Source: Verrucomicrobia bacterium 12-59-8
GTDB taxonomy: Bacteria; Verrucomicrobiota; Verrucomicrobiae; Verrucomicrobiales; Verrucomicrobiaceae
NCBI GenBank assembly: GCA_002279765.1
Contig: NCCR01000236.1
Location: 1 to 18,210 of the forward strand
DNA: 18,210 nt
Direction of reading: 5' to 3'
Shown here piece after piece: positions 12,835 to 15,015 of the stretch. Within the stretch, counting starts at the first letter, position 1, and each line of letters opens with the position of its first letter. The position numbers and the translations under genes were made by a program. The notes below the pieces were generated by a model. The model had not been told where the DNA came from. It made no database searches and was given only the letters and a program-made list of their open reading frames with translations.

Positions 12835-13117
12835 GGCCCAACGGCCCGCAGGAGTCAGCCCAGGGCGCTGCGAGGAACGAGCAAGCCCTGGGGTCTTGTC
12901 ACGGCGCACCGCCCCTCCCAAGGCCGCGCTCTGAAGGAGCGCAGGAGAGGTGCGAACAGGACTGAATCGTGCATGGTCGCTTTCGCACGGCACACGCTCT
13001 CCCGCGCCCATTCAGGGCGCGAACTTGAGCATGGCGGGTGGCGTGCTGAGGTATCCCAGGGCAGCACTCGCCAAGGCTCGGCCCGCCCTGGGCTGACTCC
13101 TTCGCGCCGTTGGCGCG
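12835..13117 (+). mobile_element. Non-autonomous REP/MITE-like element, copy A
   Basis: This is a ~283-bp palindromic-ended element without a gene. The 18-bp terminal inverted repeats AGGAGTCAGCCCAGGGCG (12850-12867) and CGCCCTGGGCTGACTCCT (13084-13101) are perfect. Outside them lie small hairpins GGCC-CAAC-GGCC on the left and CGCGCC-GTT-GGCGCG on the right. Inside are, in order, CCCAGGGC/GCCCTGGG, GCGCTC/GAGCGC, a long nested stem (GGAGAG … CTCTCC with GTGCG … CGCAC), CGCGCC/GGGCGCG, and a second CCCAGGGC/GCCCTGGG hairpin. Its left ~165 bp and right end match the transposase-encoding element at 13693-14527, so it looks like an internally deleted derivative mobilised by that enzyme. Confidence 0.8.
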
Positions 13118-13190
13118 GCAAAGGCTTCGGCGGTGCTGCAAGCATTCCATGGCAAGGACCACGACCACGCCACGACCACAGAGGCGTCGT

Positions 13191-13474
13191 GGGCCAAAGG
13201 CCCGCAGGAGTCAGCCCAGGGCGCTGCGAGGAACGAGCAAGCCCTGGGGCCTTGTCACGGCGCACCGCCCCTCCCTAGGCCGCGCTCTGAAGGAGCGCAG
13301 GAGAGGTGCGAACAGGACTGAATCGTGCATGGCCGTCTTTCGCACGGCACACGCTCTCCCGCGCCCATTCAGGGCGCGAACTTGAGCATGGCGGGTGGCG
13401 TGCTGAGGTGTCCCAGGGCAGCACTCGCCAAGGCTCGGCCCGCCCTGGGCTGACTCCTTCGCGCCGTTGGCGCG
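13191..13474 (+). mobile_element. Non-autonomous REP/MITE-like element, copy B
   Basis: Copy B is nearly identical to copy A, with terminal repeats at 13206-13223 and 13441-13458 and the same orientation. Identity with copy A continues for about 36 bp past the right hairpin (to the ATTCCATGG near 13501). The sequence before its left hairpin (ACCACAGAGGCGTCGTGG) is shared with copy C. This pattern suggests segmental duplication of already inserted copies. Confidence 0.8.
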
Positions 13475-13579
13475 GCAAAGGCTTCGGCGGTGCTGCAAGC
13501 ATTCCATGGTGGATACTGCTTGGCACTCTGGCGGCCAAACAAGCCGATGGACTCGGCAACAGGCGAACCAAAGTTCAAG

Positions 13580-13682
13580 GACCACGACCACGCCACGACC
13601 ACGCCACGACCACGACCACGCCACGACCACGCCACGACCACGCCACGACCACGACCACGACCACGACCACGCCACGACCACA
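13580..13682. repeat. CCACGA/CCACG tandem repeat
   Basis: About 100 bp consist only of CCACGA and CCACG units in irregular alternation, beginning GGACCACGACCACGCC. A three-unit version of the same repeat (about 13157-13179) precedes copy B, and this expanded one precedes copy C. The reading frames across it (His-Asp-Ala-Thr runs) are by-products of the repeat. Confidence 0.9.
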
Positions 13683-13692
13683 GAGGCGTCGT

Positions 13693-14527
13693 GGGCCAAC
13701 GGCCCGCAGGAGTCAGCCCAGGGCGCTGCGAGGAACGAGCAAGCCCTGGGATTCATGACAACGCGCAGTCTCTCCCAAGGCCGCGCTCTGAAGGAGCGCA
13801 GGAGAGGTGGCGAAATCGTCTGTACCGTGCTTGGCCGTCTTTCGCGTAGGCCACGTTCTCCCGCGCCCATTCAGGTTGCAAAAACAACCCGTTTATCGTT
13901 TCATCAAGGCACGCTTCAACGAAGCACCGGAATCCGTTCATCCTTGCCTGCATGCCGCAATCACTCGCCAAGGTTTACATCCATCTCATTTTCTCGACGA
14001 AAGGGCGCGAGAAGGTCATCCCTCGGCACCTGCATCCAGAACTGCATGACTACATGGGCGGTGTCTTGCGTGATCTGGGCTGCACGGCGGTGGAGATCAA
14101 CACGGAGCCGGATCATGCGCATGTGCTTTTTCTGCTGTCACGCACCGAGACCTTGGGTGACATCGTGCGTCAGGTGAAGACGGGATCGACGGAGTGGCTG
14201 CAAAGGCAGTTGCCGATCCTGCGGAATTTTCATTGGCAGAGTGGCTATGGGGCTTTCTCCGTCAGCCAGTCGAATCTGGCAGAGGTGAAGGAATACATTG
14301 CCAACCAGCAGCGGCATCATCAGGTGATGAGTTTCCAGAAGGAATACCGGCGCTTCCTTGCGAAATACGAAGTCGAGTATGATGAGAGGTATGTCTGGGA
14401 TTGAAGCACCGTCTCCCGCGCACCGTTGGTGCGCCACGATTTGGAAACGGTGATGTTTGCGTGAACCCAGGGCGGCGATGGCTCCGCCATCTTGCCCTGG
14501 GCTGACTCCGACGGCCCTTCAGGCCGT
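13693..14527 (+). mobile_element. IS200-like/RAYT element with transposase, copy C
   Basis: This is an ~835-bp element. Its left end (13693-~13875) has the same hairpin series as copies A, B and D, with the left repeat AGGAGTCAGCCCAGGGCG at 13708-13725. A 150-residue Y1-type transposase gene (13952-14404) follows. The right end has CCCAGGGC … GCCCTGGG around a GGCGATGG-CTCC-GCCATC hairpin, then CTGACTCC and an ACGGCC/GGCCGT hairpin (14511-14527). Subterminal hairpins plus a tyrosine transposase fit IS200/IS605-type or REP-associated transposition of single-stranded DNA. It is the only copy here with a gene, hence the probable autonomous source of the others. Confidence 0.78.
13952..14404 (+). 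CDS. REP-associated/IS200-like tyrosine transposase (Y1_Tnp)
   Basis: A 150-residue protein of the HUH/Y1 transposase superfamily. It has YIHLIFSTKGREKVIP at the N-terminus and the metal-binding HUH-like motif in EPDHAHVLFLL at about residues 52-62. The helix DIVRQVKTGSTEWLQ and WQSGYGAFSVSQSN follow. The catalytic-tyrosine helix VKEYIANQQRHHQVMSFQKE has Tyr ~115 and Gln ~119. The length is normal. Such enzymes cut and rejoin single-stranded DNA at hairpins; in the REP-associated (RAYT) branch they spread short palindromic repeats. All visible motifs are intact. The ATG at 13952 gives the usual MPQSLAKVYIHLIFSTK start. It lies inside a repeat element whose ends recur three more times within 2.2 kb. 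Confidence 0.9.
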   Translation: MPQSLAKVYIHLIFSTKGREKVIPRHLHPELHDYMGGVLRDLGCTAVEINTEPDHAHVLFLLSRTETLGDIVRQVKTGSTEWLQRQLPILRNFHWQSGYGAFSVSQSNLAEVKEYIANQQRHHQVMSFQKEYRRFLAKYEVEYDERYVWD

Positions 14528-14731
14528 GAGGGAGTTACGCCACCGCAAGCTTCACGCCTGCCGCCTGCCGCCTGCCGCTGCGTCGACTCTGGTACCACGG
14601 CATCGGTTCCACAGTACAGTTCCACAGCATCGGCTCTGCTGCTTCTCTCCATCCGGGGCTGCGAGCATGGTGCGAGAAAGCTCAGTGTGAAATGGTTCGC
14701 ACATTCCATGTTCTGCGCTGGGCACTCTGGC
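14528..14731. other. Spacer between transposase element and copy D
   Basis: There is no gene here. It holds three 7-bp CGCCTGC repeats at 14555-14575. Near its right end is GGCACTCTGGCGGG, a sequence also found to the right of copy B near 13522, so shared insertion-flank sequence is possible. Confidence 0.4.
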
Positions 14732-15015
14732 GGGCCAAAGGCCCGCAGGAGTCAGCCCAGGGCGCTGCGAGGAACGAGCAAGCCCAGGGTTTTGTGACGA
14801 CGCGATGTCTCGTTCAAGGCCGCGCTCTGAAGGAGCGCAGGAGAGGTGACGAATAGGTCTGTGCCGTGCATGGCCGCTATATCCGCAGGCCACGTCCTCC
14901 CGCGCCCATTCCGGGCGCGACCTTTTGCGCAAGGCGGTCGATGTGCATGGGACCCAGGGCAGCACTCGCCAAGGCTCGGCCCGCCCTGGGCTGAGTCCTT
15001 CGGCCCTTCAGGCCG
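14732..15015 (+). mobile_element. Non-autonomous REP/MITE-like element, copy D
   Basis: This ~284-bp copy has terminal repeats at 14747-14764 and 14982-14999; the right one has one substitution (CTGAGTCCT for CTGACTCCT). It shares the hairpin order of copies A and B, but its central sequence is diverged and its outer right hairpin is CGGCC-CTTCA-GGCCG, like that of the transposase element rather than CGCGCC-GTT-GGCGCG. It ends 3 bp from the stop codon of the HNH gene, so insertion may have set the end of that gene. Confidence 0.78.

Follow-up and report, generated by a model that had tools for sequence, protein, structure and literature searches.

Inverted multi-hairpin units around an IS200-type TnpA-Y1 gene suggest a REPtron-like system in Verrucomicrobiota and other phyla

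We analyzed a stretch of 18,210 nucleotides (nt) from Verrucomicrobia bacterium 12-59-8 (GenBank assembly GCA_002279765.1, contig NCCR01000236.1, positions 1 to 18,210; hereafter the window). It contains a gene for a Y1 transposase, TnpA-Y1, between two inverted copies of a multi-hairpin unit, together with three gene-less elements made of the same unit. The best explanation is probably a REPtron-like system, in which an IS200-type enzyme, probably of TnpA-Y1 subclass 1.2, lies between two inverted units of its own. What is most likely new is the combination of a dispersal like that of repetitive extragenic palindromes (REPs) and REP-associated tyrosine transposases (RAYTs) with an IS200-type enzyme and a unit of several hairpins. 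In addition, this system is a likely explanation for the orphan Rfam family Acido-Lenti-1 (RF01687).

Inverted units flank the gene in many phyla

To compare the surroundings of the gene, we used 80 loci, the best of 576 from a contig scan with the genus and order protein alignment and hence those nearest the query. By record titles, these loci came from about ten phylum-level groups, including Verrucomicrobia, Planctomycetes, Bacteroidetes, Chloroflexi, Acidobacteria, Chthonomonas, Sumerlaeota, Deltaproteobacteria, Calditrichota, Lentisphaerae, Ignavibacteria and others. Many were metagenome-assembled genomes (MAGs), and at least four loci (L085, L086, L088 and L158) look by contig coordinates like loci already among the relatives described below. 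We found that the left and right flanks resembled each other in inverted orientation above the threshold, which was the 99th percentile of the nulls, in 55 of the 80 loci. The same threshold was passed by 3/240 cross-locus nulls and 0/401 shifted windows. The inverted flanks were present in 44 of 56 loci without Bacteroidota titles and in 11 of 24 with such titles.

A strict three-hairpin grammar, written after these loci had been seen, detected correctly oriented units at one flank at least in 47/80 loci and at both flanks in 24/80. Units in the wrong orientation occurred at 6 left and 6 right flanks, and null windows contained a unit in 8 of 1216 cases. A loose hairpin grammar had been too permissive (109/1216 null windows at a score of at least 18), and the strict one took its place. 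Furthermore, no unit was found by the strict grammar at either flank of 12 class-2 loci, which speaks against class 2 enzymes as carriers, and 8 loci of other Y1 genes (8 of 12 in that set were testable) gave 0/8 both by inverted flanks and by strict grammar.

It is thus supported that the family reaches beyond Verrucomicrobiota and is less regular in Bacteroidota. The original prediction had proposed an under-described family of large, multi-hairpin elements beside their own enzyme; this is borne out in part, by units dispersed in related genomes and nearly absent from relatives without the gene, but the enzyme is not a classical RAYT.

The transposase is IS200-like

The open reading frame (ORF) between the two units matched Pfam Y1_Tnp at 6.4e-25. 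Its protein passed the NCBIfam IS200 model (61.9 bits, cut-off 55) and failed the NCBIfam RAYT model (19.5 bits, cut-off 80). The motifs are D54-H55-x-H57, W95-Q96 and Y115---Q119--H122-H123, and they read DHAH (with A where subclass 1.2 has I/V), WQ and YIANQQRHH. Apart from the middle HuH residue, DH-H, WQ and Y---Q--HH were invariant in 14 aligned relatives, all of which matched the IS200 model, and DHxH with Y...Q..HH was present in 71 of the 79 intact proteins of the 80-locus set. The predicted fold (predicted local distance difference test, 90.7) was nearest to TnpA of ISDra2/IS608 (best 4.1e-09), while the Escherichia coli RAYT 4er8 took rank 30 (9.1e-05). A RAYT of class 2 was rejected as the identity of the protein by the RAYT model score and by the tyrosine motif, since YIANQQRHH stands in place of Y---NP. 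Of the earlier label, Y1/RAYT-like transposase, the first half therefore holds and the classical RAYT does not. In databases, some relatives (from a search with 8000 candidates scored) are already named 'REP element-mobilizing transposase RayT' or 'IS200/IS605 family transposase'.

According to Quentin et al. 2018 (PMC6006769), subclass 1.2 is characterized by DH[IV]H, WQ and YIKNQKEHH, a median length of 148 amino acids (aa) and low copy number, and is hosted mainly by Cyanobacteria and Bacteroidetes; Table 1 of that paper gives 'no' under REP for this subclass. By its motifs, length and low copy number, the window protein fits subclass 1.2 and is probably a member of it. The inverted, structured flanks of 55/80 loci contradict the published picture of a subclass that lacks REPs and terminal structures, not the placement of the protein.

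In each of four related genomes (G001, G002, G014 and G030; genomes are numbered with G and loci with L), we found one close copy of the gene (93-95% identity), and the other copies in G001 had 53% identity or less. In the window as in G001, G002 and G030, the neighbour of the TnpA gene is the same gyrB-like gene; at this place in G014 there is a gene-less doublet of units instead of the gene. The position kept beside the gyrB-like gene in G001, G002 and G030 points to vertical inheritance at a low copy number.

Structure of the repeat unit

By folding 30 flanking units and aligning 29 units of the genus and order, we obtained a common plan. It consists of a small hairpin with a triloop (sh1), a tag, a (C/T)AG foot, a large hairpin, a spacer, a second small hairpin with a triloop (sh2) and again a tag. 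The alignment held 27 of 38 parsed units and two from the window, 11 of the 38 having been dropped as near-duplicates or poor parses. Double-change cells in the stems numbered 78, against 22.8 +/- 3.4 after shuffling, and none of 500 shuffles was as high on any of five measures. Meanwhile, slid structures reached at most 0.125, compared with 0.448 for the unit structure.

The plan was parsed in 123 of 154 flank segments by a parse that demanded triloops but left the loop letters free, and the triloops were GAA, AAA or AAC in 103/123 cases for sh1 and 101/123 for sh2. The tags after sh1 and sh2 of one unit had common runs of 3.60 nt, against 2.37 +/- 0.08 nt when re-paired (106 pairs); these parse, triloop and tag figures count related loci more than once. 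At the foot before the large hairpin, position -1 was G in 78/123, -2 was A in 81/123, -3 was C in 58 and T in 32, and -4 was G in only 20, a pattern that does not fit the GT[AG]G tetranucleotide of RAYT-type REPs. The comparison of these sequences indicates the architecture, the paired changes in the stems and the tag common to both small hairpins.

In a later Bacteroidota set, drawn by A4 protein match alone, 27 of 30 loci were tested and 24 of the 27 carried the subclass signature; L356, counted among the 27, duplicates the L108 locus. About seven Bacteroidota flanks showed, by eye, two small hairpins with similar tags and TAG between them, and no large hairpin (Table 1). Thus, the three-hairpin form is not universal.

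Dispersal and empty sites

A covariance model of the window clade detected units in 39 of 56 relatives, with the most, at least 54, in G014; these copy numbers are lower bounds, at most 64 candidates having been scored per genome. Units were present in 37 of 43 genomes with a TnpA match and in 2 of 13 without (Fisher p = 5e-06), the two gene-negative genomes having 2 and 1 copies. Dispersed copies in genomes with a related transposase had been named in the original prediction as support for a mobile family.

In addition, the genomes of ten named loci were searched with their own units, and matches were found in all ten. Verrucomicrobium sp. BvORR034 (G063) had 59 matches, Flavipsychrobacter stenotrophus (G064) had 41, a Planctomycetota MAG (G069) had 50, and the remaining seven genomes had 2-10 each; a few of the matches counted are to the unit of another genome. 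In G064, 21 copies (from 20 places of the 41 matches) start at sh1 and stop at the sh2 tag, with unrelated flanks, and 19 of the 21 are free of ORFs of at least 100 codons. The ORF overlap of units in G063 was 0.53 versus 0.58, which is uninformative in this GC-rich genome. Among 20 places in G063, close neighbours were in the order + then - in 13/13 cases, as in REPINs (inverted doublets of REPs), but the aligned G064 copies are singlets. One TnpA gene of Flavipsychrobacter (L108, G064:C14:600346-600795) has an in-frame stop, and two further TnpA matches in this genome have none.

A first comparison for empty sites gave no clean site. Two sites were found thereafter: a 256-nt insert with one unit, which has CT at either junction, is present in G002 and missing from G014, and an insert of ~420 nt with one unit is present in G001 and absent in G002, G030 and G014. 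A third place, filled in G001 and G002 and shorter in G030, gave no clean empty site. By eye, other copies of the insert subfamily, among those listed, have ~45 nt beyond sh1 in common. Since the inserts are longer than one unit and this stretch is common, the moving piece in this genus may exceed one unit. Furthermore, CT comes after the sh2 tag in 9 of the 21 G064 copies (background 0.046).

Acido-Lenti-1 resembles the outer half of the unit

RF01687 is listed in Rfam as a small RNA (sRNA) of unknown function. The motif was rated as probably RNA by Weinberg et al. 2010 (PMC2864571), and a 2026 paper (PMC13298647) states that little is known of its function and argues from the motif about gene regulation. 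We found that the full model matched six of the eight window units (17.8-27 bits, E 0.0018-0.6), all below the gathering cut-off of 37 bits, and that the match covers sh1 and the large hairpin, that is, the outer half of the unit. At gathering level, there were 24 matches in 14 of the 80 loci. Twenty-two of these 24 lie within 250 nt of the TnpA gene. This zone accounts for 9.4% of the non-gene DNA under search, and each of the 14 positive loci has a match in it. In G064, for example, the match C11:332236-332280 overlaps the unit C11:332193-332279.

At the genome level, 29 of 148 Bacteroidota genomes had RF01687 matches (E <= 1e-3). A TnpA protein match was found in 19 of these 29 and in 50 of the 119 others (one-sided p = 0.019), and over the cut-off in 11/14 versus 58/134 (p = 0.012). 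Without the seed genome G064, the counts were 18/28 (p = 0.028) and, over the cut-off, 10/13 (p = 0.020). The link between Acido-Lenti-1 and subclass 1.2 among Bacteroidota genomes is thus positive but modest. By eye, genes found independently of RF01687 have the motif within ~300 nt in G064 (two loci), G114, G151, G197, G210 and G242, and among the rows listed the motif is near the gene in 6 of 69 gene-positive Bacteroidota genomes. Ten of the 29 RF01687-positive genomes have no A4 match at 1e-12, and nine of these ten have some Y1 match; gene loss, distant genes and other Y1 enzymes are candidate explanations.

Two further observations concern RNA models. At L147:2120-3592, five RF01687 matches share one strand around a single TnpA gene, forming a direct and not an inverted array. 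A DUF3800-VIII RNA (RF03075) match at gathering level is present at L131:367-432.

Copies and other features of the window

The original prediction described an element of ~835 bp with an intact transposase gene and three gene-less copies within 2.2 kb, and all four are present (Table 1). The repeats of the window (145-183 nt, 86-97% identity) are far beyond chance, judged from length and identity alone: doublets 1 and 2 have 97% identity over 145 nt of their left part, and the gene-bearing copy and doublet 3 have 86% over 183 nt. The 18-bp inverted ends AGGAGTCAGCCCAGGGCG, which had been ascribed to all copies, are exact in doublets 1 and 2, but the right ends of doublet 3 and of the gene-bearing copy agree with them at 17/18 and 16/18 positions, respectively. 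The gene-less copies had also been called derivatives. They are not simple internal deletions of the gene-bearing parent: each, ~286 nt long, holds a ~120-nt unit twice, in inverted orientation, as a REPIN-like, tail-to-tail doublet, and the unit also occurs as a singlet.

Table 1. Features of the window, with the two-hairpin flanks of Bacteroidota loci
Feature	Position or loci	Strand	Details
Gene-bearing element	13691-14528		Unit either side of 150-aa ORF
Left three-hairpin unit of gene-bearing element	13691-13809	+
TnpA-Y1, 150 aa, IS200-like, subclass 1.2 signature	13952-14404	+
Right, inverted three-hairpin unit of gene-bearing element	14405-14528	-
Gene-less doublet 1	12833-13118		Units 12833-12951 (+) and 12991-13118 (-); sh1 outside, sh2 inside
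Gene-less doublet 2	13189-13475		Units 13189-13307 (+) and 13348-13475 (-)
Gene-less doublet 3	14730-15016		Units 14730-14848 (+) and 14893-15016 (-)
Collapsed family hairpin	~6016-6090		sh1, large hairpin, inverted sh1; parsed by eye
Two-hairpin inverted flanks, Bacteroidota	L368, L370-L372, L374, L379, L381

The hairpin at 6016-6090 resembles a 'double-foot' REP from which the centre has been deleted. A short repeat array of CCACGACCACG type (13582-13690) lies immediately upstream of the gene-bearing element, and similar arrays lie upstream of G014 copies (L081 and L083). A perfect tandem duplication of 39 bp is located at 12622-12699. The last doublet is followed, before the gyrB-like gene, by a small ORF of 156 aa (15018-15488, minus strand), in which an HNH-like C..C...H..N..CH pattern was seen by eye and for which the Pfam and NCBIfam searches gave no match; the interval around it is shorter in G001 and G002. 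The gyrB/parE-like gene itself is apparently split over two overlapping frames on the minus strand (15485-17581 and 16893-17441). Its long ORF matched the full-length NCBIfam models only from ~109-118, below the cut-offs, and the N-terminal part lies in another frame, by a frameshift or an assembly error.

Discussion

The system resembles REP/REPIN-RAYT systems of class 2 in having a low-copy HuH-Y1 gene and inverted palindromic repeats dispersed as singlets and inverted doublets. However, the enzyme here is of class 1, IS200-like, with Y---Q--HH and not Y---NP; the unit usually has three hairpins (~90-125 nt), whereas a REP has one of 20-40 nt; and the foot is mostly (C/T)AG, not GT[AG]G. With IS200/IS605 insertion sequences it has in common the enzyme family, the predicted fold, the directly repeated ends within a single unit and hairpin ends with a possible one-sided guide. 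In contrast to them, the gene is not present in many near-identical copies, and the element is bounded by inverted units. The TnpA proteins share motifs, length and low copy number with subclass 1.2 as published (Quentin et al. 2018, PMC6006769), but they come with repeats, which are most regular in Verrucomicrobiota, Planctomycetota and other phyla and less so in Bacteroidota; Cyanobacteria lie outside this comparison.

Acido-Lenti-1 matches one half of the unit, sh1 and the large hairpin, at full length and, in 14/80 loci, at gathering level. However, RF01687 is annotated as sRNA, and its model has neither the sh2 and tag half nor a link to a transposase. TIRtrons also have a Y1 gene between inverted repeats able to form repeat families (Di Nocera et al. 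2013, PMC3733652). Quentin et al. (PMC6006769) place 20 of 26 TIRtron examples in subclass 2.1, with GGGGWSAS-type repeats in the majority. Such repeats were not noticed in the flanks read by eye, where no dedicated search for them was made. In the open-licence literature, we found no link of subclass 1.2 or Acido-Lenti-1 to repeats such as those described here.

We propose the following mechanism for the REPtron-like system. TnpA would bind the folded single strand when a unit is exposed, and the tag would act as an IS200-style guide. The enzyme would then cut with Tyr115 near the ends of the unit, for which CT is a weak candidate site, and would move or copy the unit in trans; doublets would form by the joining of two units in inverted orientation. 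In IS608/ISDra2, TnpA binds hairpins, with a guide 5' of the hairpin (PMC8266576). By analogy, the tag, which lies 5' of both small hairpins on the bottom strand, would be the strongest candidate for a guide. The large hairpin has an AG foot reminiscent of GTAG in REPs, whose AG is believed to select CT. The two-hairpin form in Bacteroidota would fit the small hairpins being the ends.

Several results weigh against the REPtron-like reading. Concerning the enzyme, 5 of the 14 aligned relatives also match the RAYT model weakly (E <= 1e-3). Among the flanks, 25/80 loci fall below the threshold, and the later Bacteroidota set shows inverted flanks in 10/27 loci and the strict grammar in 4/27. The 94.3% of stem cells that are paired in the 29 aligned units are partly due to selection, as these units were chosen among three-hairpin parses. 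By the covariance model, 6 of the 43 gene-positive relatives have no unit. In addition, the contrast between genomes with and without the gene is confounded with phylogeny, most gene-negative genomes being of other families; within the genus there are 4 genomes without the gene (p = 0.011), and three of them are 52-77% complete. In G019, at least seven doublets (L247-L252 and L254) lie inside a repeated element of ~490 bp (L247:858-1352) that resembles a miniature inverted-repeat transposable element (MITE). These doublets had looked like recent movers but are apparent passengers of the larger element, so that some copies have spread passively. Furthermore, both inserts at the empty sites are longer than one unit, so that the mobile piece is not fixed in this genus, and the hint of CT comes from 9/21 G064 copies and one empty site. 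Mobilization by TnpA is what we infer from the comparison of sequences.

Four other explanations were considered. The first overlaps the best explanation and has a little less than an even chance of being right. It holds that the single unit is a minimal IS200/IS605-type transposon like a palindrome-associated transposable element (PATE), in which sh2 and sh1, each with its tag 5' on the bottom strand, are directly repeated left and right ends, and the large hairpin, the doublets and the likeness to REPs are secondary. The likeness to PATEs draws on general features of those elements. The two ends of the G064 copies (hairpin and tag, 21 nt) agree on average at 18.2 of 21 positions, and the copies stop there; sh1 and sh2 tags are common within units, and the enzyme is IS200-like. 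In addition, the ~seven Bacteroidota loci that keep both small hairpins and tags without the large hairpin raise this explanation slightly. However, the gene stands between inverted and not direct units, which is not standard for IS200, the doublets are strongly directional (13/13), and paired changes are also seen in the large hairpin itself.

Second, the unit might be a genuine sRNA that the transposase locus carries or uses, for instance to control its expression. This is unlikely. Although Rfam and the rating by Weinberg et al. speak for an RNA, the units lie on both sides of the gene in opposite orientation, the sh2 and tag half belongs to the same conserved unit, and the copies are dispersed, in G064 mostly outside long ORFs.

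Third, the units might be mobilized by Y1 enzymes of these genomes other than the subclass 1.2 protein, such as class 2 RAYTs. G001 does have class-2 proteins, at three places over the RAYT cut-off, and the RF01687-positive Bacteroidota genomes without an A4 match mostly have some Y1 match. However, units are absent from both flanks of the class-2 and other Y1 loci under the strict grammar, and in those ten genomes no Y1 place was seen by eye within 1 kb of an RF01687 place among the matches listed, which makes such enzymes very unlikely carriers. Finally, a purely local tandem duplication in one genome, as the clustering of four window copies within 2.2 kb might suggest, is ruled out for practical purposes by the dispersed copies: units in 39/56 relatives, other families in other phyla, and empty sites.

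Going beyond the REPtron-like system itself, we consider a wider proposal whose chances are about even. Subclass 1.2 would be a separate IS200-derived, repeat-mobilizing lineage over about ten phylum-level groups. Its element would be a single-strand transposon whose ends, each a hairpin plus a guide, are direct repeats; most lineages would have a third hairpin, similar to a REP, between these ends. The Acido-Lenti-1 'RNA' would then be the outer half of that DNA element and not an RNA gene.

With these results, a repeat family is assigned to an HuH-Y1 subclass for which none was given in the published table, and the REP/RAYT idea is widened from class 2 to an IS200-type enzyme. Furthermore, a testable account is offered for Acido-Lenti-1, which has been regarded as a probable RNA since 2010. 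If this account is true, sRNA labels sit on mobile DNA.

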